Of a stretch of DNA of 36,796 nucleotides, positions 2,117-17,992 are shown in pieces. This DNA comes from an uncultured Acidiferrobacteraceae bacterium (GTDB taxonomy: Bacteria; Pseudomonadota; Gammaproteobacteria; Arenicellales; UBA868). Under the pieces are notes generated by a model. That model worked only from the letters and a program-made list of their open reading frames with translations, did no database searches and was not told the DNA's origin. The stretch's first letter is position 1; each line of letters begins with the position of its first letter. The stretch covers positions 1-36,796 of the forward strand of contig CAJWEF010000009.1 in NCBI GenBank assembly GCA_913031305.1, read 5' to 3'. Both the position numbers and the translations under genes were made by a program.

Positions 2117-2153
2117 TATGACAATTCTCCCGTCCTGCGCCGATGCGGGCAAG

Positions 2154-2951
2154 TCACTCCAAGGCCAAGGTAGGGAGTTTCAGGCCATGGTGAATAAACG
2201 CGGCTTGCGCATCAGTGGATTGCAGGTACTCGAAAAACCGCTGGGTGGCCACATCGCTATTTTGCAGCATGACCATCACCTGGTGCAGCGGCATATCTGG
2301 ATGACTCGCTGCAGGAAGTAACTGAAGGTCTCCCAACTGGGCCAGCGCGGCTGCACGGGCCAGCGACAGGGGGACCAGTGCTGCGTCAACCCCAGCCTGA
2401 ATGGAATACTGCACAGCCTGGCCGGCGTTGGCGCCGAGCAGCAGCAGGGGTCTGACTTTTTCCCACAGACCTGCATCCCCAAGAGCTGCGCGAGCCGCGC
2501 TACCGTAAGGGGCGTGCTCTGGATTGGCAATAACAAAACGTTCAATTCTCCCGGCAGTCAAGGCGCGCCGAAGCGCTGCCAACGGCTTGGTGTTCACATC
2601 GAGTAATCCGTGCCGGGTAAAAAGGGCCAACACCCCGCCAGCATAGACTACCGGCGCCCCACGGGTCCAACCCGCATTGGCAAGCCGTGTGACATAAGCA
2701 CCATTCGCTGAGAGGAATAACCCGAACGGTGCTCCGTTTTCAATCTGCTGTGCCAGCATTCCCGATGACGCGAAGACCAGGCGTACCGATTCACCGGTCG
2801 CCTCAAGATAACGCGCAGCGACGTCTTCCAGCGCCGCTCGCGTGCTCGCAGCCGCTGCCACCAGCGGACCCTCTGCTGCGCTCGCTTCGGCGCCGATTAA
2901 CAGCCCAATCGAAGCCAGTAGCAAAAGAAAGGTTCGCCCTAACCGGGTCAT
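2154..2951 (-). CDS. modA: molybdate-binding periplasmic protein ModA
   Basis: Periplasmic receptor that captures molybdate or tungstate and hands it to ModB. The 265-residue protein begins with a Sec signal peptide (residues 1-26, ending ASA-AEG). The mature start AAASTRAALEDVA and then FASSG are the ModA oxyanion-contact segments. The rest follows the two-lobed ModA plan (NPEHAPYGSAAR near the middle, VPLSLA further on). Length is normal for the family. Its ATG overlaps the stop of the preceding gene (ATGA at 2948-2951), so the nitrate-reductase-associated protein and the transporter are probably co-translated. Whether it prefers molybdate or tungstate cannot be told from the sequence. Confidence 0.86.
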   Translation of the reverse strand: MTRLGRTFLLLLASIGLLIGAEASAAEGPLVAAAASTRAALEDVAARYLEATGESVRLVFASSGMLAQQIENGAPFGLFLSANGAYVTRLANAGWTRGAPVVYAGGVLALFTRHGLLDVNTKPLAALRRALTAGRIERFVIANPEHAPYGSAARAALGDAGLWEKVRPLLLLGANAGQAVQYSIQAGVDAALVPLSLARAAALAQLGDLQLLPAASHPDMPLHQVMVMLQNSDVATQRFFEYLQSTDAQAAFIHHGLKLPTLALE

Positions 2952-3448: not shown

Positions 3449-4060
3449 CTACCGAGCCAGCACCTCGCGCACTATTTTGAGTACCTCGTCCGCCGGGGAC
3501 CCATGTTGAATCAACGCGACAGCGCCCCCGCTCCGGCCGAGAAGGTATATAACGCCTGAGTGATCGACACTGTACCCCAATGCGGAGTCAGGAGCGGGTA
3601 CTGCTTGGTAGAGTACACCATACTGTTTAGCGACCTGAGCTATCTGCGCGGCCGTGCCGGTCAAACCTCTGATCTTGGGATGAAAAAAGGCGCTGTACTC
3701 AGCCATGCGCTGTGGCGAATCACGCTCAGGGTCAAGGCTGATAAACAGCACCTGAACATTGTCTAATTCACTGGCGCCTAAAGTCTGTAACACACGACCC
3801 AGCACGGTCAATGTCGTGGGACAGATATCCGGGCAAAAGGTGTAACCAAAAAAGAGCAGTACTACCTTTCCTTGATAATCAGAAAGCGAGGCGGGTCCTG
3901 TGGCCGAAGCCAGGGTGAAGTTACCTCCAAGGTCTGGATAGGGGCTCTGCGTGCCGGCAGGTAGCGGGTCCAGCCACAAGACCTCGGCAAACACTTTCTC
4001 GGTCAAGGCTGCGGCAAGAAGCAGCGCCAACCCCGTCCGAACGCTCCACCGCAAGGCCAT
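3449..4060 (-). CDS. Sco1/SenC/PrrC-family copper chaperone
   Basis: Periplasmic thioredoxin-fold protein that binds copper and normally helps load it into oxidases or periplasmic cupredoxins. The 203-residue protein has an N-terminal signal/anchor (residues 1-25), the Sco copper motif CPDIC (C76, C80) within FGYTFCPDICP, and the conserved histidine H167 in VDHSG. SLDPERDSP is another family hallmark. Length is typical. Its ATG overlaps the stop of the preceding small membrane gene (TAATG-type overlap). Classical clients are haem-copper oxidases, none of which is encoded here. The candidate clients are the bd-like oxidases or the cupredoxin-like protein at 26204-26998. That is inference and makes its presence informative. 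Confidence 0.85.
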   Translation of the reverse strand: MALRWSVRTGLALLLAAALTEKVFAEVLWLDPLPAGTQSPYPDLGGNFTLASATGPASLSDYQGKVVLLFFGYTFCPDICPTTLTVLGRVLQTLGASELDNVQVLFISLDPERDSPQRMAEYSAFFHPKIRGLTGTAAQIAQVAKQYGVLYQAVPAPDSALGYSVDHSGVIYLLGRSGGAVALIQHGSPADEVLKIVREVLAR

Positions 4061-4266
4061 TAAACCCCCTGCCGCACCGCTCCGATCACCAACAGAATCA
4101 GCCCCCCCGAAAAAAGTACCGGGACGATGCCTCCGAGCGCAAACCCGCCACGCCAGGACAACATCGCGTCAAGCATCGCCAGAATCAGAAATACCACCCC
4201 GAGAAGTTTGGTCTTGGTACCTTTACGAGGTTCCGGGCGCTGTGGTTGCGGGAGCGCCGTTCGCAT
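4060..4266 (-). CDS. small two-helix membrane protein, function unknown
   Basis: A 68-residue protein with a polar, proline- and basic-rich head (residues 1-20) followed by two hydrophobic segments (about 22-37 and 43-63). I chose the ATG at 4266 because it overlaps the stop of the upstream cytochrome gene as ATGA. The frame also opens at 4305, which would overlap that gene by 40 bases. The stop overlaps the Sco start. Not recognised. Small membrane proteins next to Sco are often accessory to oxidase assembly, so that role is possible here but unproven. Confidence 0.6.
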   Translation of the reverse strand: MRTALPQPQRPEPRKGTKTKLLGVVFLILAMLDAMLSWRGGFALGGIVPVLFSGGLILLVIGAVRQGV

Positions 4267-5870
4267 CAGCTTCGGACTCGCCGCATGGCGGTACGGGCCC
4301 ACCATATTTCTAATAACAGTATCAGTACAAAAGCGAATCCGGCGAACAGCCAGGGCTTATTGCCCGGCTCGGGCTTGAGCAGCAACCAGTACCAGGTGGT
4401 CAACGTATGGGCACTACCCCGCTCACCGTTGCTGCCGTCCCAGGCAGAGAACGCCACCGGGATGAAAGCCCCTTCGACAAATTGCAGATCCTCCGCGGAA
4501 CCCACCGTGGTCAACGGCCGGCGCAACACCACCTGCCAGGTCCCCTCGTGGTAGCTGCCACGCCCCTGCAGGCCAACCGTGCTCGCATCACGGACAATCT
4601 TGTCTGCTATCCCGCGAGCCGTCACTAAAGCTACGCTCGGATCCTCGGTGGTGCTACCGCTGCGCCATGACCACAGGTTGACCGGGTGACGTGAATCGCC
4701 GTGCAGGAAATACGGCTTCTCGGGGCCAGTAGGAATCTTCACCGGCAACTGAATCGCTACCGCATCCTCGCCGAGGCCTGGTTCGGAAACTTTCTTTGCC
4801 GCCCGGTCCCCGGGAATACTTCGGGTCCGGTCGTCCCATTCCACGTGAAAGCCGATCTCATCCTGGTTATACAGAGCGCGCACCGTGATGGTGTCGTTGG
4901 ACGGGGTAAAGAACCGCTCTGCAGCAATCAACTGGGGTACCAGAAGAAAAGTGCTCGATGGCGCCTCCTGCCACTGCGGGTCGTCAGGGGTAACCGGGAC
5001 CGGCCCGGCCAGCCGCGTCGCCCGTATCACGGTATTCTCCGGGCGCACGATTTTTTCCGTTTTTGCCAATGAATTCACATAGTTGGCTATGTTCCAGCGC
5101 TGCTCGATCGAGAGACGGCCGTCGCTGGCGGGATCATCAAATGAAGGCATTTGGGTACCGGCAATCCCGGTAGTGATGCGGGTGAAAATATCGCGGGGGT
5201 CGTTGCTGCCGCGAAAGGTCCAAGGCTTGGTCAGATTGCGCGGCCAGGTCCGGTAGCCGGAATCATCTTTAAGTTTCTTGACCGCATCACCCTTGCCCGC
5301 CTGCCCATGACACTCGGAGCACCGATCATCTTGGTGAAAGAGTTTGCGCCCTGTTTCGATGCTCTCAGGTGAGATCGGCACCTGCGCGCCATAGTCAATA
5401 ACCTGGCCGGGCTCTTCCTCCTCCAGGCCCGCCAGGGTCTTGAGAAAGGCAACCAGGTCGTTAATGTCCTGCTCGGTCAGTACATCGCCCCAACCAGGCA
5501 TGGCAGTACTGGGCATGCCATCGTGAATCATGCGCACCAGATCGCTATCGACCGGCACAATCTCTTCGAAGGCGGTGGTTCTGATCTTGTACTGTGCCAT
5601 CGTAAAATCCCGAGGGGGCGGGTTGAGTCGCTCTGCCGCCGGACCCATACCATCACCCTCTTCACCGTGGCACAAGGTGCAACGTTGTGCGTAGATCTCC
5701 TCGCCCTTTTCAGCATCACCCGCCGGAAAGGCAGGCCTGGACATGAATCCGAGCACCACCGTCAGAAAGATTACGATCAACCGTAGATACTGCCGTAATA
5801 CCGGTAAGCCACCCTGATCCACGCCCCCTCTGGCCTGAAAGGCCCCTACCTTGAACTTTGGCGTCGCCAT
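4266..5870 (-). CDS. dihaem cytochrome c fused to an ethylbenzene-dehydrogenase-type haem b domain (module B)
   Basis: A 534-residue exported, membrane-anchored protein. A hydrophobic leader (about 29-48) is followed by two cytochrome c domains with CTLCH (64-68) and CSECH (184-188); candidate Met ligands are M124 and M241. From about residue 295 to 500 comes a domain like EB_dh, the haem b gamma-subunit fold of ethylbenzene, dimethylsulfide and related dehydrogenases (ITVRALYN..EIGFHVEWDD, AWDGSNGERG). One transmembrane helix (508-527) ends the protein with a basic tail. Known EB_dh proteins partner molybdoenzymes, but none lies adjacent. It closes a four-gene module (9366-4266). Its paralogue is at 11287-12924 and shares GDS..PV.LW.WRS and AWDGSNGE. 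A role as periplasmic electron relay to or from the oxidase is inferred. Confidence 0.8.
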   Translation of the reverse strand: MATPKFKVGAFQARGGVDQGGLPVLRQYLRLIVIFLTVVLGFMSRPAFPAGDAEKGEEIYAQRCTLCHGEEGDGMGPAAERLNPPPRDFTMAQYKIRTTAFEEIVPVDSDLVRMIHDGMPSTAMPGWGDVLTEQDINDLVAFLKTLAGLEEEEPGQVIDYGAQVPISPESIETGRKLFHQDDRCSECHGQAGKGDAVKKLKDDSGYRTWPRNLTKPWTFRGSNDPRDIFTRITTGIAGTQMPSFDDPASDGRLSIEQRWNIANYVNSLAKTEKIVRPENTVIRATRLAGPVPVTPDDPQWQEAPSSTFLLVPQLIAAERFFTPSNDTITVRALYNQDEIGFHVEWDDRTRSIPGDRAAKKVSEPGLGEDAVAIQLPVKIPTGPEKPYFLHGDSRHPVNLWSWRSGSTTEDPSVALVTARGIADKIVRDASTVGLQGRGSYHEGTWQVVLRRPLTTVGSAEDLQFVEGAFIPVAFSAWDGSNGERGSAHTLTTWYWLLLKPEPGNKPWLFAGFAFVLILLLEIWWARTAMRRVRS

Positions 5871-6659
5871 CTACTCATGCCCCCAGGATCGCGGCTGGTG
5901 ACCGGTGTAGTCATATAGGTACAGGATCACTTGCCAGATCTGTTCTTCGCTGAGAAACTCCTGCCAGGCTGGCATTGATGAAATCCAGGGTGTCGCCTCT
6001 TTGGGCAGGCCTGGGCCGCCAGTCGCGATCCGCCAGAATAAAAATGACTCCTGTAGCTGGGCGATCGTGCCAATATCCTGAAAATTCAGCGGCACTGGAT
6101 TAAGCCCCTGGGCATATGGGCCTTTCCCGTCCAATTTATCGCCGTGGCAATACTGGCAATTGCGGATATACACTTCACCACCGTCAGTTACCAGTTCGCG
6201 GAACTGCTCAGGATCGTCTTTTTCCAGATGCCGGTAAGGATTCTCCAGACTCATCAAATCATAGCGTTTACCAAAAATCTTCGCCGAGGATGGGGGTGCA
6301 GGATGTATAGAACGCAGCTCCAGGGGTGCCTCATCACTAGGCTGCATCTGCAGAAAAACCGCAACCGCCGCCAAACCCGGTACCACAAAAAAGACCACGT
6401 TTCGCATCAGTCGCCGGCCCGGCTCCTCGACCAGTGCTCGGATAGGGTCAACTAACTGCCGGGTGCTTTCTTCGGTTGCGGTGAATACCATCAACACCCC
6501 GGTCACCACAAAGAACATATACATCCGCATCAGACTTGCCGGGATAGGTTGGCCCAAGAGCAAATCGAAGATCAGCCAGAACCCTGCGTAGATACCGCCG
6601 ATCACCAGAACCAACTGCGCCAGGCGTGGGATTTTCGGCATTTTTTTGACTTTGTTCAC
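5871..6659 (-). CDS. membrane-anchored monohaem cytochrome c (module B)
   Basis: A 262-residue protein with three predicted N-terminal membrane helices (about 13-33, 43-61, 87-105) and a periplasmic C-terminal cytochrome c domain. The haem motif is CQYCH (168-172), and the likely Met ligand is in SSMPAW near the end. The phrase GGPGLP.EATPW is shared with the paralogue at 12924-13889. The start overlaps the upstream gene by 4 bases and the stop abuts the next ATG, so it is tightly coupled to its neighbours. The helices have no recognised quinol-site motif. The protein may anchor the complex or carry electrons between quinol chemistry and the dihaem proteins. I do not know a named family for it. 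Confidence 0.78.
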   Translation of the reverse strand: MNKVKKMPKIPRLAQLVLVIGGIYAGFWLIFDLLLGQPIPASLMRMYMFFVVTGVLMVFTATEESTRQLVDPIRALVEEPGRRLMRNVVFFVVPGLAAVAVFLQMQPSDEAPLELRSIHPAPPSSAKIFGKRYDLMSLENPYRHLEKDDPEQFRELVTDGGEVYIRNCQYCHGDKLDGKGPYAQGLNPVPLNFQDIGTIAQLQESFLFWRIATGGPGLPKEATPWISSMPAWQEFLSEEQIWQVILYLYDYTGHQPRSWGHE

Positions 6660-7474
6660 CTTAGCGATGCCAGGTATTGCACCAGCAGTTCGAGTTCACC
6701 GGCGTAGATTTCCCCCGCGTAGGTCGGGGGCATGATGGGCGGAAAACCATCGGCTATTTCTGCTGCGGGATCCAGAATTGCCCGGCGCAGGTAAGCCAGG
6801 TCCCGGGTAGCCCCGATACGGCTGAGGTCCGGACCAAGTTCTCCTCCTTCTCCGGACATCTTGTGACAGGTAACACAGGAGAACTTCGTTATCACTTCAT
6901 CGGCGCTCACCAGTGCAACCCGGGGTGCTGCATCGGGCGCATCGGAATCACTCACTGGCGTTTGAACATCGGTGGGGATCTCAACTGTAACCTCAACGCC
7001 AGCAAGGTCTTGCAGGTAGGCGATGACGGCACTGACCTCGACTTCTGACAGACCAATACTCCCAGCCGTGACACTGGGCATCGGGCTGACCGCATCGCCG
7101 CTTCCTGCTTTGCCGAAGCCAGCGACGACGTAAGCTGATGGCTCAAGCAGAGACTCGGCCAGGTACTCCTGTGCATCAGTGGCCCTACCCTGATAACGGG
7201 CATCGGACAATCGTTCTCCGGCGATAATGCCAGCCCGTTCCAACAACGGGGCACGTCCACCCACATCGTTATGACATAGGGTGCAGGTGCCCTTTCCGTT
7301 GAATAGTTTCTCCCCCAGGATAATGAACTGTTCCGGTGTCATCGCCCCCAAATCCAGCTTTTCTTCGACCGGAGGGGGTGCTGGCTTGATCTCCGGTATG
7401 CCGTAGTTGGAAAATCCAGCGAAGAACCCGATCATCAGTAAGCTGAATATCGTAACTTTGAGGAAATGCTTCAT
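6656..7474 (-). CDS. dihaem cytochrome c with N-terminal anchor (module B)
   Basis: A 272-residue protein with an uncleaved-looking N-terminal hydrophobic segment (3-21), a proline-rich linker and two cytochrome c domains: CTLCH (64-68) and CVTCH (200-204). The second domain begins SGEGGELGPDLSRIG, as in the 'Pirellula/Verrucomicrobium-type' haem-binding domain, but lacks the insert of about 50 residues present in the paralogue at 13886-14890. PM.PSVTAG and PPIMPP supply candidate Met ligands. Start and stop overlap neighbours by 4 bases each. The shortening relative to its paralogue shows the two modules have diverged. Confidence 0.78.
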   Translation of the reverse strand: MKHFLKVTIFSLLMIGFFAGFSNYGIPEIKPAPPPVEEKLDLGAMTPEQFIILGEKLFNGKGTCTLCHNDVGGRAPLLERAGIIAGERLSDARYQGRATDAQEYLAESLLEPSAYVVAGFGKAGSGDAVSPMPSVTAGSIGLSEVEVSAVIAYLQDLAGVEVTVEIPTDVQTPVSDSDAPDAAPRVALVSADEVITKFSCVTCHKMSGEGGELGPDLSRIGATRDLAYLRRAILDPAAEIADGFPPIMPPTYAGEIYAGELELLVQYLASLR

Positions 7475-9366
7475 CCGCCCTGGACTCCTTTCCAGTAACC
7501 CCGGGCATCAGTCCGCCGACTGCTGATCTGACTCAGCCAGAAAACAAATATCACCAGGACCATGAACAGAATAGTGCCAATTGAAACGATGTTGGCGGCA
7601 TAACCCAGTGTCGGCGTGTAAGCATCCGGCGAGGCATCGCGAAAGACATCAGTCACGTGCCAGTGCTGGCGAATCCCGGATCGGATGTAGCCCATCAACC
7701 CCATCAGCCAGGTGAATGCCACGGCCAGCAGAAATAGAGCGTACTGGGCCCGATTGGGCACTCTGCCCCAATTCAGGGGCGCAACCTCGCGCGACCCGCG
7801 GTACATCAGCGAGTCCAGCGTAATACTCACCACAATGATGATTAAAGTCGTCATCACCTGTGGAATCGAAGCCGCCACTTTGTACACGGTGTTGGTGAAG
7901 TACCCGTGGTAGATCCCCAGAAACAACAGGTTCGCTATGCCGGTCGTATAGAGCGCCAACTGAGCCGCATTACCCGCATTGACCCAGGTTACCGTGGCGA
8001 TCCGGTTTGAGCGGCGGTAAAAAAGGAAACTGAGCGCCGTAAACAGAATCATGATATTCACGGCTGTGTTTTTCGCCGGCATAATTCCCAGGGGGCCTAG
8101 ATATTTGTGGTAAGGCCCACCGAGCGCCTTCAGTTCCTCGTTGGTTAATACCAGAGTGTGCGGAGTGAACCAGACCAGAAAGCTTCCGATAATCGCAATC
8201 GCCAGATACTTGATGTAGCCGTTGTAGCGGACTGCACCGTCACTACGGCCCATGCCACACCAGAGGTAATAATTAGCAGACAAAAACAGGGTGCCGATCA
8301 ACACAGCCTGGATAATAAACAGCCAGGCAAAAATGCCGCCCATCAGGGTGATGCCCATCTGCTGGCTGTAAGCATAGATCTCTGCCGCAAGATAATAGCC
8401 TGCGAACGGTAGCGGCAGCAGTGCCAGGATGGCGATAAAGTTGGCGTTGTATCCCATCCAGTCGTAGTGCGCCCGTTCCTCCGGGCGTCCCGCGCTGAGA
8501 AAACGAAAAGCGGCATAGGCGCCAACAATGGATCCGCCATAGGCAATGTTGGCAATGAACCGGTGCAGATTGATCGGATTCCACAGATAGTTATGCATCG
8601 CGACCCAGGTGTCTCCGGAAAACACCCCGCCTGGATCAATGCCAGCGGGACTCATCATGAAGGTTACCCAGCCATTAGCCAGAAACATCAAGGTGGTGCC
8701 GACCGCATTCAGTACTAACCCGATACTAAGGTGCAGCCACTTGCGGAACCCACCCTGCAACCAATGCCAGCCGTAGTAATACAAATACAGAGCCGCGCTC
8801 TCAGCGAAAAACGCCAGCGCGTAATAAAACATACTCTCGCCAAAAATCTCACTGAGGTAGGAAAACAAGTGCGGGTAAAATACGATCAGGCTGAACAGCA
8901 ACAGGCCGCCCAAGATCGCAGTTAACGAGTACGCAGTGATACTGATCTTGATGAATTCGTAAGCCATATCGTCGTAACGCTGATCTCGCGTTTTCATCCC
9001 GATAGCCTCGATGATGAAAACAAAGATCGGCACGGCAAGTACAAACGCGGCAAACCACAGGTGCAGCTGGGCGACCAGCCAGACCGTAACCCGGCTGTTA
9101 ACCCCAGATACCGTCGGATAGTCGGTCGCGATCAGTTCCGGTGCGCTGATACCCGATGGGACGGTGTCCGCTGCCCCCTGCACTGCTCCAGACGCGGCAT
9201 CAACCGCAGCTGCCAGCAGGTCAGTTGACCCCCCAAGTAACATAGCGAACGCGAGAGCCATGAAGCCAAGCAGGCTTCGAACAGAACTCGAGCCAAAGGG
9301 ATTCTTTGCGTTGCAAAAAAGCATATGGCCGTTGATCATTTTTTTTAAGTCACCCACGCCTTTCAT
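7471..9366 (-). CDS. cytochrome bd-like oxidase, single large subunit (module B)
   Basis: A 631-residue polytopic membrane protein related to CydA. The N-terminal half keeps CydA landmarks: AQLHLWFAAF (position of the first haem histidine), FAESAALYLYYYGW (the paired-acid helix), FLANGW and NPINLHRFIANIAYGG. It lacks the GRQPW quinol-loop motif and there is no CydB. Extra C-terminal helices carry GLMGYIRSG..R..WHV..VFRD, shared with its paralogue at 14895-17084 and, from memory, with the bd-like oxidases of nitrite oxidisers such as Nitrospira. I start at the ATG at 9366 because it overlaps the stop of a 38-codon gene as ATGA; the frame is open to 9462. Electron donor and reaction are not known. 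O2 reduction is the family expectation. Confidence 0.8.
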   Translation of the reverse strand: MKGVGDLKKMINGHMLFCNAKNPFGSSSVRSLLGFMALAFAMLLGGSTDLLAAAVDAASGAVQGAADTVPSGISAPELIATDYPTVSGVNSRVTVWLVAQLHLWFAAFVLAVPIFVFIIEAIGMKTRDQRYDDMAYEFIKISITAYSLTAILGGLLLFSLIVFYPHLFSYLSEIFGESMFYYALAFFAESAALYLYYYGWHWLQGGFRKWLHLSIGLVLNAVGTTLMFLANGWVTFMMSPAGIDPGGVFSGDTWVAMHNYLWNPINLHRFIANIAYGGSIVGAYAAFRFLSAGRPEERAHYDWMGYNANFIAILALLPLPFAGYYLAAEIYAYSQQMGITLMGGIFAWLFIIQAVLIGTLFLSANYYLWCGMGRSDGAVRYNGYIKYLAIAIIGSFLVWFTPHTLVLTNEELKALGGPYHKYLGPLGIMPAKNTAVNIMILFTALSFLFYRRSNRIATVTWVNAGNAAQLALYTTGIANLLFLGIYHGYFTNTVYKVAASIPQVMTTLIIIVVSITLDSLMYRGSREVAPLNWGRVPNRAQYALFLLAVAFTWLMGLMGYIRSGIRQHWHVTDVFRDASPDAYTPTLGYAANIVSIGTILFMVLVIFVFWLSQISSRRTDARGYWKGVQGG

Positions 9367-9479
9367 GGCTGAAAGAATAGGGTCAATCCGTTTAACTTCA
9401 TGACCGCAAGATCGAGACCTAGAAACGCCAGCGCGCAGGTTACCAACGTAAGGACAAACCATAGTGGTGCACTATTCAT
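9363..9479 (-). CDS. 38-residue single-helix membrane peptide upstream of the bd-like oxidase
   Basis: ATG at 9479 with a strong ribosome binding site (GGAGAAGAG just upstream) opens 38 codons, and the TGA overlaps the ATG of the oxidase gene (ATGA at 9363-9366). The peptide begins MNSAPLWFVLTLVTCALAFL and continues with a short amphipathic tail, so it is one transmembrane helix. The size and position resemble CydX/AppX, small subunits that stabilise bd oxidases, though I see no sequence similarity to them. A good Shine-Dalgarno plus stop-start coupling makes a chance ORF unlikely. No equivalent exists in front of the paralogous oxidase at 14895-17084. Confidence 0.6.
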   Translation of the reverse strand: MNSAPLWFVLTLVTCALAFLGLDLAVMKLNGLTLFFQP

Positions 9480-9545
9480 TCTCTTCTCCGGGGCTCGCCC
9501 GTTCAGTTCCCGACACCCATAATTGCTACGTGCGCAGCCACTGTT

Positions 9546-10040
9546 TCATTGCAGTGCCGCCAGCATGTAATCGACCGCAGCACGAACTTCAGCCTCGTTC
9601 AGGGCGGCGTTGCCGCCTCGAGGTGGCATAACCCCGGTCGTACCCTGGAAGCCGTTAATCGCATTGCCATAGAGTGCTTCGGCCCCGGCTGCAGCCCGAT
9701 CCCGCCACAACTCCTGGTCGCCCAGTTGCGGGGCACCGGCAATGCCCGCGGCGTGGCACACCGCGCAAGCACTCTGGTAAACAGCTTCTCCCCCCACGGT
9801 CACATTAGCGGCGCCGGCCCCGGGCTCTGCTTTGGTGACCAGCATCTTGCCGACCGGCGCCAATTGCTCGCGCAGGGTTTCCACCTGCAGAGCCTGATCT
9901 TCAGGCGCTGCCGACGGGCTACTAAGGAACCACCAGAAAAACGCAAGCACAGTAATCGCAACCGCGATAAACACGGCAGGCCCGGCCCAGCAGGTGATCG
10001 GTAGGGGGCCCAAGCTGGTTGCGGTTGGTGAGTCTGCCAC
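9546..10040 (-). CDS. membrane-anchored cytochrome c5-type protein
   Basis: A 164-residue protein starting at a GTG. One transmembrane helix (about 20-39) is followed by a short helical linker and a cytochrome c5-like domain: GEAVYQSACAVCHAAGIAGAP with C92, C95, H96, then GDQELWRDR and the Met ligand M138 in GVMPPRGG. It is followed by 66 bases of untranslated sequence before the 38-residue ORF. It sits in the set of small cytochromes between the two oxidase modules and may shuttle electrons to the downstream oxidase (inference). The GTG start has only a weak GGA upstream, so a slightly different start is possible. Confidence 0.8.
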   Translation of the reverse strand: MADSPTATSLGPLPITCWAGPAVFIAVAITVLAFFWWFLSSPSAAPEDQALQVETLREQLAPVGKMLVTKAEPGAGAANVTVGGEAVYQSACAVCHAAGIAGAPQLGDQELWRDRAAAGAEALYGNAINGFQGTTGVMPPRGGNAALNEAEVRAAVDYMLAALQ

Positions 10041-10065
10041 TGTCGTATCCGTTTGCAGGCCCCGG

Positions 10066-10167
10066 TTACAGAACGTAAAAATAGAGAATCAATACAATCA
10101 CTACCAGGTTAATGCCCATGCCAGAAAGGATCACACCGTTCGCCAGACGCTTTTTCCAAAGCTTCAT
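10066..10167 (-). CDS. 33-residue single-helix membrane peptide between cytochrome genes
   Basis: ATG at 10167, 33 codons, TAA at 10066-10068. The peptide has a basic head (MKLWKKRLANG) and one hydrophobic helix ending in YFYVL. This basic-in, hydrophobic design is typical of small oxidase subunits (CcoQ/CydX-like size) and of membrane peptides inserted with N-in topology. It fills an otherwise empty 145-base gap between two cytochrome genes in the same direction. The Shine-Dalgarno is weak (GGCGG about nine bases upstream), so expression probably depends on coupling. Not recognised as a named family. Confidence 0.5.
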   Translation of the reverse strand: MKLWKKRLANGVILSGMGINLVVIVLILYFYVL

Positions 10168-10185
10168 GGTATTGAGACCGCCGGG

Positions 10186-10554
10186 CTAACCTGTCTTGCC
10201 GGTGCAGTTACACAACTGGCGCAGGTATCCCACCAGGGCTTCAATCTCGGCGTCCGTCAGGGTCTTACCCCACGGTGGCATCATCGGTGACTTGTCTGCG
10301 ATCGGCCCACCATCGATGATGACATTGCGAATATCTGCGTCGGAGATTTTCTCCATCTCGGCCGTCTCCGTGAAGTTTCTGGGATCAACCGGAAAATCCC
10401 CGGTAACGTTAGGGCCATCACCCTCACCCTCGGTGCCATGGCACTGCGCACAATAGAACCCGAATAACGCTTTACCATCCGCTGCCTGTGCAGCCCCAGT
10501 GAAGACAGGGCCCAGGGCCACTATCAGTAGAGCCATCAGAAATACTCTGGTCAT
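10186..10554 (-). CDS. small periplasmic monohaem cytochrome c
   Basis: A 122-residue secreted cytochrome c. The signal peptide is residues 1-24 (AQA-ADG). The haem motif is CAQCH (35-39) followed by GTEGEGDGPN, and the Met ligand lies in SPMMPPWGK (about M92). The C-terminus carries an unusual LCNC pair. I chose the ATG at 10554 because GGAG lies seven bases upstream; the frame could also open at a TTG abutting the upstream stop. The form resembles the monohaem electron carriers that feed terminal enzymes. A specific partner is not shown by sequence. Confidence 0.8.
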   Translation of the reverse strand: MTRVFLMALLIVALGPVFTGAAQAADGKALFGFYCAQCHGTEGEGDGPNVTGDFPVDPRNFTETAEMEKISDADIRNVIIDGGPIADKSPMMPPWGKTLTDAEIEALVGYLRQLCNCTGKTG

Positions 10555-10575
10555 GTTCATTCTCCGCGTAATCAA

Positions 10576-11238
10576 TTACTTGAACGTCGCGACGTGCGCT
10601 GCCACGTTCTTCATATCCTTATCACTCAGGACTCCGACGAACACCGGCATCATCTTGACCGGTTTAAATACCTTCGGCTCGCGAAGGTAGGCCAATACCC
10701 AGTCCGGGTTAAGCCTTTCCCCAGCACCGATGAGTGAAGGGCCGGATAACCCGCCGGAGAATTTTTTCTTGGTGGGGAACTGGTGACAACCACTACACGG
10801 CATCTTTTTAATAAAGATTAACTTGCCCTTCAGGTTCTTCTTTTTTACCTTCACTGCACCGTCCACAACGATGTCAGATCTAAGGCTCATAAGATAGTCG
10901 GCCACCGGACCAGCCTGGTCGGCGCTCAACACCGCGTGCCCACCCGGGTTAGGCTCCATGACCGAGTTAAACTTCATTGGTCGGATTGGCTGTGGATCTG
11001 CCAACCAGGTCTCGAGCCACGGTCGCTGAAACTTACTGCCGGCATACCACAGTTCGGGGCCTTTCTTGGCAAGCTGATCCGCAATGGTTTTCTCAGTGGC
11101 AGGCCCTTGCGTGTAGTGACACGACTGGCAGCCGCTGGATTCAAACGCCGCCTGACCCGCCGCAGCGTCGGCCCGGGCGAGGGAACTGGTCATCACCAAC
11201 AGTACCAGCGCGGGGAATACACTTGCTCCTGTTTTCAT
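10576..11238 (-). CDS. periplasmic dihaem cytochrome c
   Basis: A 220-residue secreted protein with a signal peptide (1-23) and two cytochrome c domains: CQSCH (37-41) and CSGCH (148-152). A lysine-rich bridge (VKVKKKNLKGK) joins them. LWYAGSKFQRPWLETWL in the first half and PDWVLAYLREPK in the second show that the two halves share the same design, so this looks like an internal duplication. Met ligand candidates are in MKFNSVMEP and KMMPVF. The ATG at 11238 is preceded by an AGGA. It lies 48 bases after the end of module A and begins the set of intermodule cytochromes. Confidence 0.78.
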   Translation of the reverse strand: MKTGASVFPALVLLVMTSSLARADAAAGQAAFESSGCQSCHYTQGPATEKTIADQLAKKGPELWYAGSKFQRPWLETWLADPQPIRPMKFNSVMEPNPGGHAVLSADQAGPVADYLMSLRSDIVVDGAVKVKKKNLKGKLIFIKKMPCSGCHQFPTKKKFSGGLSGPSLIGAGERLNPDWVLAYLREPKVFKPVKMMPVFVGVLSDKDMKNVAAHVATFK

Positions 11239-11286
11239 CCTAACTGTCCTCTTGCTATTTGGAATCATTTCCCTTCTTCTTACTCC

Positions 11287-12924
11287 TTACACCACCGCTG
11301 CCACACGCCGGCGTTCTTTGCGGACCAGCCATACGCCGAGCGCACCACTGACGACAACTGCCAGCAGGGTGTAGAGGTAGATCTTTATCGGTACCGGCGC
11401 TTCCAGAATGACACTGTGCCAGGTAGAAAGGCTCATAATCAGGCCGTGTTCCCCATTGGAACCATCCCAGGCATTCAGGGCAAGGGGAATAAACCGGCCC
11501 TTGACGAACTGGATATCATTGCGATCGTCGGTCAGGAGGGGGCGGCGCATAATTACACTCCAGCGACCCTGGTTCCAACTCGCTACCGTATCGACCTGCT
11601 GTTGCTCGCCGGGTTGCACCTTGGCAGGTTGTTTCCAGCCGCGTGCATTACTTTCCTGCACTGCCTGCCCCGCATTCTCTGCCCCGTCCGAGCGCCAATG
11701 CCACAGATGGACGGGATTTGAGGAGTCACCACGAAAGAAATGAGGCTTCTTGGTTCCCTCTGGCAGTTTCACCGGAAACTGCAACGCTATCGCGTCCCTG
11801 AAAGTCTCCAGTTGCCGTGGCACCACATCGTTGGCGGCAACATAAGAATTGAAAGCGCCCATACGCGAGATTTCTTGTGGATCGAATTCGATTCCACTTT
11901 GGTGAAGCTCATCTTTAAACGGGTCGTCCCATTCAATCAGAAAGGCGATCTCCTCAAGGTTATACAACGCGCGAACGGTGACCAGTTCGATGCTTGGGTT
12001 CTGCCATCGTGGCGCTGCGACGACCTGGCCGGTCAAGCGGACGTCCATCGGCTCGGCGGCGAGCCAGTTTGCCTCCCCTGGGTCCTGAGAAATCTCCCCT
12101 TCGATCTCCAATGCCCTGAGCACTTGATGGTTCGTCAGTTGATGTTGAAGTGACTTGATGAAATTAGCCAGGGCCCAGCGTTCTTGCTCGGTCAGCGCAT
12201 CAGCAAATGAGGGCATGGGCGTACCGTTTATGCCGGTCGAGAAACGCATGTAAATATCCTCCGCCTCGCTGCCCGCCTTGATCTTCCACGGGTGGGTCAC
12301 GTTACGGATTCGAATTGGGAAGCCCCAGTCATCGGTTCGATCGAAGGATTTCTGGCCGTCGCCGCGGCCCAGTTTGCCGTGGCATTCCCAGCACTTCGCG
12401 TGCTCAAACACCTCTTTACCCTTGGCTACCAGTGCTTCGCTGTACGCCGGGCGCTCGGATGGCAGTGTCACTACCAGGTCATTCTTGACCGGATCAAGTT
12501 CGGGGTCATCAAATTCGATAGCGAAGGTCTTGATGTAGTCGATCACGGCCCAACGTTCATTTTCGCTCAGCCCGTTTTTAATTAAATCGCTGTCAAACGC
12601 CTGCATCGCAGTACCCGACAGGCCCCGGCTGACCGTTCGGAACAGATCCTCATCGCGCGGCAGTTCGCCACTTTGTGTGGTGCGGAACTTGAAGGTGCCA
12701 AGAGTGAAATCCCGTGGCCGGGGGTCCAGAAAATCTGCGGCCGGACCATTTCCATCCCCGAGCAGGCCGTGGCAGAAACTGCAGCGGCGCAAATAAATCT
12801 CTACCCCTTGGTTAAGACTGGCGTCGGTCGCCTCTGGCCTGGGTCCGCTTGGCGCCGATGCCCCCAGCGCAACCCCCCAGTTCAAGATCAATAGGGTGAA
12901 GATTGCGGCCACGCGACATTTCAT
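11287..12924 (-). CDS. dihaem cytochrome c fused to an ethylbenzene-dehydrogenase-type haem b domain (module A)
   Basis: A 545-residue paralogue of the protein at 4266-5870. A signal peptide (1-22) leads to cytochrome c domains with CSFCH (48-52) and CWECH (178-182). An EB_dh-like domain follows (about 300-510: VTVRALYNLEEIAFLIEWDD, GDSSNPVHLWHWRS, AWDGSNGEHG), then one C-terminal transmembrane helix and a basic tail. The ATG at 12924 overlaps the upstream stop as ATGA, and the frame also remains open upstream to 13041. It is the last gene of module A. Compared with its paralogue it has an insert before the FRDAIALQFPVKLPEG segment. In known enzymes the EB_dh fold holds a haem b with Met/Lys ligation; I cannot assign the ligands here. 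Confidence 0.8.
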   Translation of the reverse strand: MKCRVAAIFTLLILNWGVALGASAPSGPRPEATDASLNQGVEIYLRRCSFCHGLLGDGNGPAADFLDPRPRDFTLGTFKFRTTQSGELPRDEDLFRTVSRGLSGTAMQAFDSDLIKNGLSENERWAVIDYIKTFAIEFDDPELDPVKNDLVVTLPSERPAYSEALVAKGKEVFEHAKCWECHGKLGRGDGQKSFDRTDDWGFPIRIRNVTHPWKIKAGSEAEDIYMRFSTGINGTPMPSFADALTEQERWALANFIKSLQHQLTNHQVLRALEIEGEISQDPGEANWLAAEPMDVRLTGQVVAAPRWQNPSIELVTVRALYNLEEIAFLIEWDDPFKDELHQSGIEFDPQEISRMGAFNSYVAANDVVPRQLETFRDAIALQFPVKLPEGTKKPHFFRGDSSNPVHLWHWRSDGAENAGQAVQESNARGWKQPAKVQPGEQQQVDTVASWNQGRWSVIMRRPLLTDDRNDIQFVKGRFIPLALNAWDGSNGEHGLIMSLSTWHSVILEAPVPIKIYLYTLLAVVVSGALGVWLVRKERRRVAAVV

Positions 12925-13889
12925 CAGTGCGACTCCGGTATACGCGGAGTTTTCTGCGCCAGGTCGTATTCCGCAAGAATGATCTTCCAACGCTCTTCTT
13001 CGCTGAGATTCAACTTCCATACCGGCATCGCCGAATCCCACGGTGTCGCCTCGGTTGGCAACCCGGGTCCGCCGTTGCTGACACGCCAGAAGGTATAACC
13101 TTCGACAATTGTTTCGATAGTGCCGTTGTCAGTGAAATTGATGGGGCGCAGTTTGAACCCGTCGGCCATCGGCCCGTCACCGGCCACACTGTCGCCGTGG
13201 CAGGGCCGACAGTTCATCGAATATAGGGCCCGACCCTCAAACAGGTGTTTTTCCATCAGTGCTGCGCGGGCCGAATCACGGTTGACACTGGCCGCCCCTA
13301 ACTCTCGCAAGAAGGCGCGCATCGGCGCAGTCGGGATGGCCTCGAGCATGTGATCGGGCTCGGTGTATTCAGCCCAGCTGTCCAGGTCTGCCTCCAGTTG
13401 GGGGATAAATCCAACCTCGTTAGCCTGAGCCTGCTCAATAAATGCGTCGACCTCGGCGTCGGATGGGCTGGCAAAGGGGTTCTTCAGATCTTCGTTCTTT
13501 TTGGGGAAATTTGACGAGGGATGCTGGATGCGCAGCGACGAGGGCTGTTGCACCTTGGGTATAGTGACATCGTATACCTGCCAGCCGATCAGCGCCGGTA
13601 CTATTACCAGTCCCAGGGTCCGCGTTGTCCGGCCGTACTCGCCGCGCAAAAAACGCTGGATCGGGTAAAGAAATTCCGCCAGGTGCTCCTCGGAGAAAGT
13701 GACCAGTAAAAACAAGGCGATGATCGTCAACAACATATAAATGAACATCAGCGTGCCTGGTACCGTCAGCGGGAATGGCATCCCAGTGATCTCCCGCGAC
13801 AGTGCCGGGATGCCCCACTTCACCAGGGCGTAGATCAACACCAGGGTCAATACGATCGTCCAGAAGCGAAAGGTTGGGGGCTTTTTCAT
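12924..13889 (-). CDS. membrane-anchored monohaem cytochrome c (module A)
   Basis: A 321-residue paralogue of the protein at 5871-6659. Three N-terminal membrane helices (about 8-27, 43-64, 90-107) precede a linker that is about 60 residues longer than in the paralogue and rich in acidic residues. The cytochrome c domain has CRPCH (227-231) and GGPGLPTEATPW..AMPVW, probably with the Met ligand. Both ends overlap neighbours by a few bases. The shared helix count, haem position and the GGPGLP.EATPW motif show common descent of the two genes. The role is probably to anchor or relay electrons within the oxidase-linked complex (inference). Confidence 0.78.
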   Translation of the reverse strand: MKKPPTFRFWTIVLTLVLIYALVKWGIPALSREITGMPFPLTVPGTLMFIYMLLTIIALFLLVTFSEEHLAEFLYPIQRFLRGEYGRTTRTLGLVIVPALIGWQVYDVTIPKVQQPSSLRIQHPSSNFPKKNEDLKNPFASPSDAEVDAFIEQAQANEVGFIPQLEADLDSWAEYTEPDHMLEAIPTAPMRAFLRELGAASVNRDSARAALMEKHLFEGRALYSMNCRPCHGDSVAGDGPMADGFKLRPINFTDNGTIETIVEGYTFWRVSNGGPGLPTEATPWDSAMPVWKLNLSEEERWKIILAEYDLAQKTPRIPESH

Positions 13890-14890
13890 TGTGCTGCTTC
13901 CTTGGCAGAGGCCTCGTCACCTTTTTGCATCATCAGGTAGGCCAGCACGTCCTGAAAGTCCTTCACGGTGAGCATTTCAGTCAGATCATTGGGCATGACG
14001 CTGGCGCCTTCGTCCTGCTCGATCTCGCGGATATCGTCGCGCGGTATTACCGCTACCTCGCCCGTTGCCTTGGTGATCTGCACCTCCGCGGGCGTATCTC
14101 CAGATTTGAGGCCGACATGCTTTCGTTCATCTGACTTGGTCACTACCACCCAGGTCTCATAGCCATCGCTGATCTTTCGCGCCGGGCGGAGGATGGATTG
14201 GGAAATGAACTTCAGGCCCTTTTCACCGATACGGGAAAGGTCGGGACCGATGTCACCGCCGTCGCCGGCGATGCTATGGCAATCAGAGCAGGTATCGGCG
14301 AACATTTCCTCGCCGTTTCCCGGATCGCCGCCACCGGCTGCGCTCGCCGCGGCGATCCGGGCGTAGTAACTCTGGGCCAGTTCACCCGGGTTTTCGATGT
14401 TATCCAGATCCAGATCGCCGCCCTGACTCTGCAGGTAGGCTATTACCGCCTTGATCTCCTTGAGGTTCAGCGAAATCGGTGGTGCATAGACGATCGCCAT
14501 CTCATTTTTGTAGCCTTCCACCAGGTAAGCATCGGGCTTGGCCAGGCTCTCCACCAGGTAATCGGTACTACTGTAGTGAGTGCCTGTTTCTTCGGAACGC
14601 TCCTTGGCGCGCTGTTCAGCCCGGGCGCCAATCGGCAATGGGAACTTCTCACCAAACTGGCCAAGATTGGGGCAACGTACCGCGCTTCCTTCCCCGCCCA
14701 GGCTGTGACAGGTAAAGCACCGGCCCTTACCCCAGAAAATCGCTTCACCTCCTTCCGGCGTGACTTCGACCACGCTGGCCGCCTTTCGTTCACCCCCAGT
14801 CATTGCAGTGATCGCCTGCCCAATCCACATGTAAGTACCCAGCACCACCAGCAGAAACACGAATACCCGCACAATGGCATTGGAGCGCAT
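13886..14890 (-). CDS. dihaem cytochrome c with Pirellula/Verrucomicrobium-type haem domain (module A)
   Basis: A 334-residue protein with an N-terminal anchor (8-28) and two haem motifs, CFTCH (58-62) and CSDCH (201-205). The second domain reads IAGDGGDIGPDLSRIG, then SILRPARKISDGYETW, a beta-rich insert and GASVMPNDL near the end. That order matches what I know as the putative haem-binding domain of Pirellula/Verrucomicrobium type, with SVMP giving the Met ligand. The ATG at 14890 has GGAGG upstream; the frame is open to 15019 inside the oxidase gene, which I reject. The paralogue at 6656-7474 lacks the beta-rich insert. Confidence 0.8.
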   Translation of the reverse strand: MRSNAIVRVFVFLLVVLGTYMWIGQAITAMTGGERKAASVVEVTPEGGEAIFWGKGRCFTCHSLGGEGSAVRCPNLGQFGEKFPLPIGARAEQRAKERSEETGTHYSSTDYLVESLAKPDAYLVEGYKNEMAIVYAPPISLNLKEIKAVIAYLQSQGGDLDLDNIENPGELAQSYYARIAAASAAGGGDPGNGEEMFADTCSDCHSIAGDGGDIGPDLSRIGEKGLKFISQSILRPARKISDGYETWVVVTKSDERKHVGLKSGDTPAEVQITKATGEVAVIPRDDIREIEQDEGASVMPNDLTEMLTVKDFQDVLAYLMMQKGDEASAKEAAQ

Positions 14891-14894
14891 TGTT

Positions 14895-17084
14895 TTACCC
14901 TCCCACTGGCGGGGTTGACGATGCGCCCGACCCATCAGGCACGTCATCGGGTTTATCTGCCGGCTCATCCGGCGCCTTGTTTTTCGCGGCAATACCACCA
15001 AGCCAGAACATGAACGCAACCCCGACCATAAATACCAGTACCGCCAGGCTGACCATCTCAGTCATCGTGTAGTTACTCGGGGTGTATGACCAGGGGGAGG
15101 TGTCACGCATCACCCCAAAAATATGCCAGTCACCGCGCAAGCCGGAACGGATGAAACCCATCAAACCCATATTCATCGTGATCACAAACGTAAGAAGCAG
15201 CAAGGCATACTGGCTGCGCACCGTCATCTTGCCCCACTGCAATTTACCCAGTTCCCGGGCGCCCCGGAAAAGGTAGATATCGATGGCTGTCACCAGGATG
15301 ATGCAGCTGATCAACTGCAAAAATTGGGAGACCGCAATGTTGCGCAGGAACGGCGAGGCCTTCTCCATGACGACAAACCCATACACGCCGAGGAATATCA
15401 CCACACTCAAGGCTGTGGCTGTCATGTACAGGCCCTGGGCGAGTTTTCCTCTATCCCGTAACGCGAGGATGACCGCGAGTACAGCCATCGCGCATTCAAA
15501 AGCCAACAGGTAACCCACCGTTCGAAAATAGTGCACCCGGTCTGCCGGCAAATCGAGTTCAGCCGGATCCAGGTTGAACATCGACAGCGCGTACTGACCA
15601 ACGATGGCGATGGCAACCAGTCCTGCCAGGGAAATCACGATCTGCGGAATGCGGCCTTGTTGACTGATCGGCACAACGTCGCTCTTGTTGCCACGACGAT
15701 AGAGAAGAAAACTAAAGAAGGTCGACAGAATGATCAGGTTCACGACCGCGTTCTTTGCCGGCATCAAGCCCATAAACTTGAGCGTCGGGTGATACTGGCT
15801 ACCGCCCATGTCACCCACTTCTCCGCTGGTCAAGGGCAGGTTGTGCGGCGTGAGCCAGATCGCGAAAGAAATAATCAGCGCCCCGAGAATGAATTTGATG
15901 TATTTGTAGTAACGATCTGAACCGGGTATCCGGGTCATGCCACTCCACAGGTAGTAATTACTGATCAGGAAAAGGGAACCCACTAACATCGCCTGGATGA
16001 TGAAAGTCCAGGAGAAGTCTCCCCCCATCATATTGTTGCCCATCACCGCACTGGTGGAATAAACCTCACGACCGAGGTAGTAACCTGCAAAAGGTAGGGG
16101 AATGAGGCCGCAGATGGCCACAAAGTTAGCGATGTACCCCATCCAGTCGTAGTGGGCTCGTTCAGCTGGGGTCTTCGCGCCAATAAACTTGACCGCGGCA
16201 TAAGCCCCCGCGACCAACCCCCCGAATGCCAGGTTGCCCAACATCCGGTGAATCGCAATCGGTGTGGCGAGGATGTTCTCAAACACCTGCCAAACCGTAC
16301 CAATCAGTTCGCCTTCCTGGTCCACCCCCGCTGGGCTCATCATGAATCCCGCCCAGCTGTTCGCAAGCTGCATGATAGCGGTGCCAGCAATATTGAGCAG
16401 GATGCCTATCAGGATGTGCGAGCTTTTCAGGTCACGAAGAATCAGCAGGCCCACCCCCAGCGGCAGGATGTACAACAGCGCAATGAAGGAGCGCGTATCA
16501 CCGCGCATCTGCAGGCCGAACCCACCGAACAACAGCACCACTGCAACGCCGATAATCAAAATCCCCAGCCCCTTGAACAACCACTGCAACTTGACAGGGA
16601 AAGGGCCGCCCCCTTGCATTCGGTTCCAGCCGTAGTAGTACAGGTATAAGAAAAAAGTCTCAGCAAAAAACAGCAAGGCATACATGAACATGACATCTTT
16701 GAACAAGCCGGCCATGTACCCCATAAAGGTCGGATAAAGCGTGAACAACGCAAACGCGAGCAACCCTCCCAGGGCGGCAGTAGTGGCGTAGGCCACACTC
16801 AAAAGGCTGGTGAATTCGTAGGCGAGCTTGTCCAGTTTCGAGTCGGTACTACGCCAGCCAACGATCTCAACGATCACCGCAAACAGCGGCACCCCGAGAA
16901 CAAAGGCCCCGAAAAACAGGTGCATCTGCGCCAGAAACCAGATCAATCGGCGCGAGTCGATGCCCATGAACTGGCGATATTCGTTGGCCTCCAATGCCAG
17001 GGCTTCCGGCGAAATAAGCACCAGCACCAGCACAGCGACCCAGCCGAAGCGGTTTGGACAGCGGCTGACCCGGGACTGGTTCAT
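14895..17084 (-). CDS. cytochrome bd-like oxidase, single large subunit (module A)
   Basis: A 729-residue polytopic protein related to CydA and paralogous to 7471-9366. A cleavable-looking signal (ending ALALE) precedes helix 1 with FLAQMHLFFGAF. FAETFFLYLYYYGW, QLANSW.GFMMSPAG and ATPIAIHRMLGNLAFGG follow. Compared with the paralogue it has an extra segment of about 50 residues holding two helices after YYYGWNRMQGG. Both share AHYDWMGY.ANF, GLMPAKN and a C-terminal GLMG.IRSG.R..WH...V.RD.SP. No GRQPW loop and no CydB gene are present. The tail is acidic and proline-rich. The start overlaps the upstream cytochrome gene as ATGA. O2 reduction is the family expectation; the donor is probably one of the many cytochromes c rather than quinol (inference). 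Confidence 0.8.
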   Translation of the reverse strand: MNQSRVSRCPNRFGWVAVLVLVLISPEALALEANEYRQFMGIDSRRLIWFLAQMHLFFGAFVLGVPLFAVIVEIVGWRSTDSKLDKLAYEFTSLLSVAYATTAALGGLLAFALFTLYPTFMGYMAGLFKDVMFMYALLFFAETFFLYLYYYGWNRMQGGGPFPVKLQWLFKGLGILIIGVAVVLLFGGFGLQMRGDTRSFIALLYILPLGVGLLILRDLKSSHILIGILLNIAGTAIMQLANSWAGFMMSPAGVDQEGELIGTVWQVFENILATPIAIHRMLGNLAFGGLVAGAYAAVKFIGAKTPAERAHYDWMGYIANFVAICGLIPLPFAGYYLGREVYSTSAVMGNNMMGGDFSWTFIIQAMLVGSLFLISNYYLWSGMTRIPGSDRYYKYIKFILGALIISFAIWLTPHNLPLTSGEVGDMGGSQYHPTLKFMGLMPAKNAVVNLIILSTFFSFLLYRRGNKSDVVPISQQGRIPQIVISLAGLVAIAIVGQYALSMFNLDPAELDLPADRVHYFRTVGYLLAFECAMAVLAVILALRDRGKLAQGLYMTATALSVVIFLGVYGFVVMEKASPFLRNIAVSQFLQLISCIILVTAIDIYLFRGARELGKLQWGKMTVRSQYALLLLTFVITMNMGLMGFIRSGLRGDWHIFGVMRDTSPWSYTPSNYTMTEMVSLAVLVFMVGVAFMFWLGGIAAKNKAPDEPADKPDDVPDGSGASSTPPVGG

Positions 17085-17719
17085 TCTTTCTCTCCGGTGA
17101 TCTGACCTTTAAGCGTGGGCTTGGGAATTTCGCGTAACAAGCGGATCAGCGAGATGATTTCTTCTCGCTGCACTACGTGCTCTACTTCGCTATCGCCGCA
17201 AAACTCCCACGGGCCAGCATAGTGACTCAGTTTTTCCCGACCCTTCGGAATAGCCTCGGAGAGCGCTGGCATGCTCGAGCTGTGGCAGCTTTCGCAATAG
17301 TCCTGGAACAACCCGTCCCCACCGATCACCCGGATATAAGTGAGCACCGCAAGCTGCTCGCGCTGGTTCAGTTCCTTGGCCCAAGGCGGCATGGTCGCCC
17401 GACCCTCAGCGATGCTCCTGAGCAGTTCGGCCTCGGGTTTGTCCAATCGCTCACCCTTGGCGAAATTGGGTGCGCCGGGCAGAATCGGGATGCCATCGTA
17501 GCCGTGGCACATCGCGCAGTTGGCGTGGTATATATCACGGGCTTCGACTAATGCGTCGATATCGGCGGTCGAGATCTCAACAGCCCTGGCCGATACACTG
17601 CCCGAAAGCAATACGCAACACAGCAGCACCCCGACGACGCCAGGCGAGCGTGAGATACACAACTTCAAAGCCGTGATCGGCCAACGCCAGCCCCGTCGCA
17701 CCCCGATCGTTCCGTTCAT
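17081..17719 (-). CDS. dihaem cytochrome c, first gene of the cytochrome/oxidase operon
   Basis: A 212-residue protein with a basic N-terminus, a signal/anchor segment (about 27-46) and two haem motifs: CAMCH (68-72) with MPPWAKELN downstream, and CESCH (142-146). The second half is short and lacks an obvious separate Met-ligand loop. The ATG at 17719 has GGTGG upstream, and the open frame that extends to 17986 holds no plausible leader. It is the first gene after a sigma-54 promoter (17821-17836), giving a leader of about 90 bases. Its 4-base overlap with the oxidase gene suggests it is a dedicated partner of that oxidase. Confidence 0.78.
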   Translation of the reverse strand: MNGTIGVRRGWRWPITALKLCISRSPGVVGVLLCCVLLSGSVSARAVEISTADIDALVEARDIYHANCAMCHGYDGIPILPGAPNFAKGERLDKPEAELLRSIAEGRATMPPWAKELNQREQLAVLTYIRVIGGDGLFQDYCESCHSSSMPALSEAIPKGREKLSHYAGPWEFCGDSEVEHVVQREEIISLIRLLREIPKPTLKGQITGEKE

Positions 17720-17820
17720 TTTTCTGCCACCTGTCTCATTGCATGCTTTGTGCCTTTCACCGCTACCACCTTGCGGGCGGAGTTCGGGGTCGCGGCGTGC
17801 CTGATCCTGGTCTTTTGGTA

Positions 17821-17836
17821 AGCAATATCTGTGCCA
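17821..17836 (-). promoter_or_regulatory. sigma-54 (RpoN) promoter of the cytochrome/oxidase operon
   Basis: On the minus strand this reads TGGCAC-AGATA-TTGCT, which fits the RpoN consensus TGGCAC-N5-TTGCW with GG and GC ten bases apart. The predicted start of transcription is near 17810, about 90 bases before the ATG at 17719. It is in an intergenic region and in the correct orientation. It has the same two hexamers as the promoter at 27082-27097. Confidence 0.75.
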
Positions 17837-17992
17837 ATTCCAAAAAGCAGCGATAGCTTCCCTGTCTACGGTTCCTCTAGGCTCCCTTCGCCGCAGCCGG
17901 CCGATCAGGGCAGAACGATCTGTTCTTTTCACCCGCGAGTGGCTGTGGTCATGAAACGGAATATTCAATTTCTCGTCACTGGGCACGGGTGC

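Follow-up and report, generated by a model that had tools for sequence, protein, structure and literature searches.

In this study, we found that a bd-like oxidase/cytochrome module is linked to an Idr-type gene cluster for a periplasmic molybdoenzyme. This link is what is new here; no paper connecting idr genes with bd-like modules was found in our partial coverage of the literature. The occurrence of the two systems together in many bacteria suggests that they belong to one electron-transfer chain. We consider it an even chance that the modules encode a bd-like, cytochrome-c-linked membrane complex moving electrons between the Idr-type enzyme and O2, presumably towards the latter.

The window, the whole 36,796-nucleotide stretch of DNA analyzed, comes from an uncultured Acidiferrobacteraceae bacterium, and its kin are marine MAGs labelled Arenicellales/Acidiferrobacteraceae. 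All of its genes lie on the minus strand, from the Usp/PCP_red protein gene (36503) to modC (360). Going upstream from the modules, the Idr genes are followed by the cupredoxin-like gene, a sigma-54 two-component system and the flavoprotein, radical SAM and Usp/PCP_red genes. Downstream of module B lie SCO1 and then modABC. The features are as follows, in the direction of transcription.

34467..36503 (-): protein with two Usp and three PCP_red domains, conserved with the CydA-B module
33194..34561 (-): radical SAM/SPASM protein with a C-terminal PCP_red domain, best matches NirJ2/AhbD-like but below cut-offs
31749..33203 (-): Amino_oxidase-type flavoprotein (PF01593)
28703..31999 (-): PAS sensor histidine kinase
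27331..28839 (-): sigma-54 response regulator
26204..26998 (-): cupredoxin-like protein with a CarboxypepD_reg domain; His/Cys/His/Met pattern recognized by eye
25030..26184 (-): IdrP2-like dihaem peroxidase/MauG-type protein, order as in Azonexus
23781..25058 (-): IdrP1-like dihaem peroxidase/MauG-type protein, order as in Azonexus
23208..23768 (-): IdrB-like Rieske protein (TIGR02694)
20502..23201 (-): IdrA-like molybdopterin oxidoreductase (AioA/IdrA family, Idr clade)
18097..20334 (-): HEAT-repeat protein, a conserved neighbor
17081..17986 (-): c301, dihaem cytochrome c upstream of A1 (Pfam, CxxCH)
14895..17084 (-): A1, CydA-like protein of OR-N type, 729 aa (PF01654), in the A clade with Nitrospirota/Nitrospinota members
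13886..15019 (-): A2, dihaem cytochrome c, likely start ~14890 (Pfam, CxxCH)
12924..13889 (-): A3, three-helix monohaem cytochrome c (Pfam, CxxCH and TM count)
11287..13041 (-): A4, dihaem cytochrome c with EB_dh domain, alt-NxrC-like, C-terminal TM, likely start ~12924 (PF09459, 8e-22)
10576..11268 (-): c230, dihaem cytochrome c between the modules, place conserved
10186..10575 (-): c129, monohaem cytochrome c between the modules, place conserved
9546..10040 (-): c164, monohaem cytochrome c, poorly conserved
7471..9462 (-): B1, CydA-like protein of OR-N type, 663 aa, nearest to the Nitrospira bd-like_2 module (PF01654, fold match, tree)
6656..7474 (-): B2, dihaem cytochrome c (Pfam, CxxCH)
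5871..6659 (-): B3, three-helix monohaem cytochrome c (Pfam, CxxCH and TM count)
4266..5870 (-): B4, dihaem cytochrome c with EB_dh domain, alt-NxrC-like, C-terminal TM (PF09459, 1e-21)
3449..4060 (-): SCO1/SenC copper chaperone (PF02630), also after B4 in Sedimenticola, Thiodiazotropha and one Burkholderiales
360..2951 (-): modABC, molybdate uptake, from a reading of the sequence

A Nitr_red_assoc gene (PF09655, 2948-3406) adjoins modA. The cupredoxin-like gene is conserved beside A1 in Alphaproteobacteria.

The eight genes that the first-pass annotation had assigned to two modules are all present on the minus strand. Pfam and CxxCH searches recovered one order in both module A (17084-11287) and module B (9462-4266), in which the gene for a CydA-like protein comes first, those for a dihaem cytochrome c and then for a monohaem cytochrome c with three helices come next, and the gene for a dihaem cytochrome c carrying an EB_dh domain comes last. 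The two CydA-like proteins gave hits to PF01654 (E = 4.5e-12 and 4.2e-18); the six other proteins have cytochrome c domains, and the last one of each module also matches PF09459. The proposed five c haems per module agree with the CxxCH motifs (2+1+2 in A, 2+1+2 in B), and A3 and B3 each have three TM segments. Identity between A and B partners is 44-46% for CydA, ~35% for the dihaem c, ~30% for the monohaem c and 35-36% for the c+EB_dh protein. The genes are tightly packed, with 4-base overlaps at 7471-7474, 6656-6659 and 13886-13889 and abutting ends at 5870/5871. The annotation was right in families and order but omitted three c-type cytochromes between the modules (2+1+1 haems, 9546-11268) and one more dihaem c ahead of A (c301). 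Some ORF starts, those of A2 and A4, lie upstream of the likely true ones. The annotation's four-gene unit also stops short of the conserved neighbors, which include idrABP1P2 and the SCO1, cupredoxin-like, HEAT, radical SAM, flavoprotein and Usp/PCP_red genes.

The predicted model of CydA-B (pLDDT 75) matched E. coli bd-II CydA with a VIA Z of 32 over 350 residues, and its next-best fold matches were the membrane subunits of alternative complex III (Z 17-21). The fold comparison covers CydA-B only, the CydA-A model being poor (pLDDT 58). Both CydA-like proteins retain counterparts of H19, E107 and H186, the register of H186 being that of the phmmer alignment (hhalign moves it one turn), and the position of E99 is occupied by Tyr. 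No alignment to canonical CydA was obtained for the C-terminal haem ligands (M393, E445), nor for the Q-loop, which lies beyond the end of the profile alignment to E. coli CydA. Judging from the model and alignments, the proteins have a predicted CydA-type fold with the core haem ligands except E99, as in the OR-N branch of the cytochrome bd superfamily, which was reportedly defined by Murali in 2021. In the tree they nest among Nitrospira-type paralogues, which were assigned by phylum and synteny. Canonical cytochrome bd (CydAB, qOR) shares the CydA fold and some of the haem ligands with these proteins, which differ in their extra helices and c-haem partners. The window has no CydB among its annotated genes and no alignable quinol loop, and a canonical CydAB quinol oxidase was rejected on these last two grounds. 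As regards alternative complex III, an act operon with ActB/ActC is absent among the annotated window genes and the resemblance is confined to the fold of CydA-B.

The first-pass annotation considered that this unit had not been described. This was wrong, because a Nitrospira arrangement with the same four genes is already known: bd-like_2 (NIDE0901) with two cytochromes c and alt_NxrC_1 (PMC6606698, PMC3578206). A further set, bd-like_3 with two cytochromes c and alt_NxrC_2, is found in Nitrospira and also in Nitrospina and anammox bacteria, and the strictly anaerobic anammox bacteria also have related clusters (PMC6606698, PMC3578206). NIDE0901 bd-like_2 is OR-N2, a proposed complex IV (PMC6606698, PMC12342949). 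OR-N is described as a proposed cytochrome-c-oxidizing bd-like oxygen reductase, of which OR-N1 and OR-N2 are proposed to form CydAA'. Putative copper ligands have been reported for NIDE0901.

In our data, Nitrospira-type loci were equated with bd-like_2 by phylum, synteny and published description. Two of them (L225, L229) have CydA-c2-c1TM-c2EB beside a second CydA; the sequence of a third (L227) is cut after c1TM. They share the four families and their order with the window and, in the trees of c1TM and c2, are the closest to module B, but their CydA is 48% identical to that of the window and their context is complex III and NXR, not Idr. No A-type module was found in the Nitrospira-type regions examined. 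The bd-like_3/4 sets with two cytochromes c and alt_NxrC_2 (Nitrospira, Nitrospina and anammox bacteria) are clusters of the same kind with a duplicated bd-like gene nearby, but they form distinct clades (L226, L228), with smaller cytochromes and an EB_dh protein without a c-haem motif. By its gene content, the window module follows the bd-like/alt_NxrC pattern of nitrite-oxidizing bacteria, that is, a bd-like protein, two cytochromes c and a membrane-anchored EB_dh cytochrome in this order.

A contig scan with CydA-B gave at least 562 relatives, and 80 loci were kept, many of them on MAG contigs with a risk of mis-binning. The order B1-B2-B3-B4 was kept in all 58 related loci with enough downstream sequence; L119 and L133 are among the few loci in which unrelated ORFs interrupt the B order. 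A complete A module in the same order lay upstream in 21 of the 47 loci with enough upstream sequence, and a partial A module in none of these 47. The first-pass annotation would have given up the unit if the four families did not co-occur elsewhere. They were found together in this order in many phyla, so that objection falls, and a stable multi-haem unit is plausible from the gene order. In the Thiotrichales/Sedimenticola/Thiodiazotropha group (L144-L166), B3 and B4 are fused into one three-haem EB_dh protein of ~800 aa. A contig 98% identical to the CydA-B of the window is filed under a Dehalococcoidia MAG (L088) and is probably mis-binned. In the window's own genome, contig C30 (L013) carries a second AB cluster without idr; it was rejected as a second copy and left out of the counts because it is probably mis-binned: along 18.7 kb it is 98.97% identical to a contig binned with another genus (G021). 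Contig C218 (L014) carries a second idrP2-P1-B fragment, likely from mis-binning or a shared element, as for C30.

The two modules had been read as a tandem duplication. The homology of the two sets was borne out, but not the event. In the trees of all four families (CydA, c2EB, c1TM and c2), A genes and B genes form separate clades (support 98-100 for A and 93-97 for B), each including Pseudomonadota and Nitrospirota/Nitrospinota members, although these are quick trees with some long branches. A recent tandem duplication within the window's lineage would account for the shared families, the shared order and the adjacency of the sets. It is nevertheless very improbable, since the A and B clades part before their Pseudomonadota and Nitrospirota/Nitrospinota members do, and three Nitrospirota/Nitrospinota genomes (G062, G064, G065) have A and B on different contigs. 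These observations point to an ancient split, and barring artefact the four trees reject a local duplication. On this phylogenetic evidence, A and B are best described as ancient, co-inherited and separately distributed paralogues, and their neighboring placement would then be a later or retained linkage.

The molybdoenzyme of the window falls in the Idr-type set, apart from AioA, with 100% tree support (the references being plasmid idr-cluster homologues). The arsenite-binding residues of AioA are His195, Glu203, Arg419 and His423. In every Idr-type sequence covering the position of His195, the window included, it is replaced by Tyr and a 4-residue gap, and the other three are kept; an arsenite oxidase (Aio) was rejected on this replacement. 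The order P2-P1-B-A with a sensor kinase and a sigma-54 regulator is that of the Azonexus plasmid cluster, with which the window shares the four idr genes and the two-component regulators. The cluster is 50-55% identical to plasmid homologues of Vibrio, Azonexus and Thiothrix. The window has the idrA-B-P1-P2 synteny, a published marker of likely iodate reducers, and the same four genes as Pseudomonas SCT and Denitromonas (PMC8692401). It differs from the known idrABP1P2 clusters in being joined to bd-like modules. In Nitrospirota and Delta-lineage MAGs (L277-L286; G062, G231, G232, G234, G235), IdrA homologues ~60% identical match in two pieces, which suggests an insert near residue 667.

The linkage extends beyond the window. 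An IdrA-clade gene was present in 42 of 49 Pseudomonadota genomes with a B module and in 5 of 26 such Delta/Nitrospirota/Nitrospinota genomes; the other 21 lack idr, so Idr is not the only partner of B. Among 370 random Gammaproteobacteria, IdrA occurred in 17, CydA-B in 16 and both in 11 (expected ~0.7), with about nine families involved; the Fisher p of 1.3e-13 (1.9e-12 without the window's genome) is only a guide because genomes are not independent draws. Among the window's relatives, CydA-B was found in 5/6 IdrA-clade genomes vs 3/55 others. In Sedimenticola, Thiodiazotropha and other gammaproteobacteria, P2-P1-B-A follows module B, often with SCO1 between, and Idr genes also adjoin the module in an alphaproteobacterium (L099) and a Burkholderiales (L112). 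It is also possible, but rather unlikely, that an OR-N oxidase module and idr merely share mobile or accessory islands without cooperating, the oxidase serving sulfur or other lithotrophy. The presence of the genes is patchy inside genus g1, many hosts belong to sulfur-oxidizer lineages, and Idr and the module lie on different contigs in several genomes. However, the linkage spans classes, its arrangements vary while the partners stay constant, and IdrA and CydA-B co-occur at the genome level.

In the reading that we prefer, each module would supply a CydA-like haem-b subunit with its own c-haem chain, consisting of the dihaem c, the anchored monohaem c and the anchored dihaem c with its NxrC-like haem-b (EB_dh) domain. 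A and B might assemble into one CydAA'-like complex, which would carry about ten c haems, although co-inheritance is what the trees give. Since no quinol site was recognized, we propose that this complex trades electrons either with a cytochrome c of the periplasm or, by way of its EB_dh subunit, with the molybdoenzyme itself. The diheme CydA site would reduce O2, and the island would be a respiratory chain from Idr-type chemistry to O2, by analogy with the homologous Nitrospira complex, which is thought to link nitrite oxidoreductase to O2. Homology makes O2 reduction the best-supported function, while the sequence leaves the direction of flow undecided. Several observations stand against our preferred reading: E99 is Tyr, the C-terminal ligands could not be aligned, characterized Idr enzymes are reductive and the anammox relatives are strictly anaerobic.

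In characterized Idr enzymes, cytochrome c is the electron donor for iodate reduction (PMC8692401). If both work in the forward direction, a reductase next to a proposed O2 reductase makes an odd pair, which leaves three alternatives. The O2 reductase and Idr may draw on one cytochrome c pool at different O2 levels, the module may hand quinol electrons to Idr, or Idr may be oxidative with O2 as acceptor, as NXR is in nitrite oxidizers.

In the second case, the module would be a quinol:cytochrome c bridge resembling alternative complex III rather than an oxidase, and it would be the quinone-linked partner of IdrAB in iodate respiration. The Denitromonas idr cluster has no quinone oxidoreductase (PMC8692401), and the next-best folds and the anaerobic anammox relatives noted above are also in keeping with such a bridge. 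For bd-like proteins, a role like that of canonical bd oxidase without a quinol site has been called unlikely and a role like that of alternative complex III suggested, but the same work reports that the canonical quinol-binding residues of CydA are absent (PMC3578206), and no Q-loop was alignable here. In addition, descriptions of characterized iodate reducers mention no need for such a module, and 6 of the 17 IdrA genomes among the 370 Gammaproteobacteria lack it. We regard the bridge as possible but fairly unlikely, and less probable than O2 reduction.

In the third case, the Idr-type enzyme of these mostly lithotrophic hosts would oxidize iodide towards iodate, and the bd-like pair, cytochromes and copper proteins would pass high-potential electrons to O2. 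We consider this improbable. The energy of iodate respiration lies between those of O2 and nitrate (PMC8692401), so iodide oxidation by O2 would give a small yield. If true, the bacterium would be a respiratory iodide oxidizer and could be the biological source of marine iodate that is still missing. The Idr link thus bears on the partners of the idr cluster and on the maker of seawater iodate, an open point (PMC12335899).

The terminal oxidases of the main nitrite oxidizers are proposed to be bd-like complexes of OR-N type, and we found no purification, measured activity or complex of any OR-N enzyme in the literature consulted. That many Pseudomonadota have the unit, and have it linked to another periplasmic molybdoenzyme, speaks for a general role as an adapter that connects molybdoenzymes of high potential to the membrane chain. 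These Pseudomonadota may be more tractable hosts for studying OR-N complexes.

The radical SAM, flavoprotein and Usp/PCP_red genes (31749-36503) travel with CydA-B across classes, also without idr. Of 31 loci with wide flanks, 26 have Usp/PCP_red and radical SAM genes close to the module, and this also holds in Delta lineages without idr nearby. PCP_red is a protochlorophyllide reductase domain, and the radical SAM protein scored best, though below the cut-offs, against tetrapyrrole models (NirJ2/AhbD). Our guess is that these genes, a candidate tetrapyrrole modification set, make a modified haem for the complex, and their conservation is a concrete lead for haem modification. L068-L069 (G033), which lack both idr and the A module, show a further variant: CydA is fused to a cytochrome c domain and is followed by a c3+EB_dh protein and the UspPCP, radical SAM and flavoprotein genes. 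In Gallionellales/Nitrosomonadales MAGs (L117, 15150-18007, and L114), a 611-aa protein of unknown kind and a small c protein lie between B4 and UspPCP.
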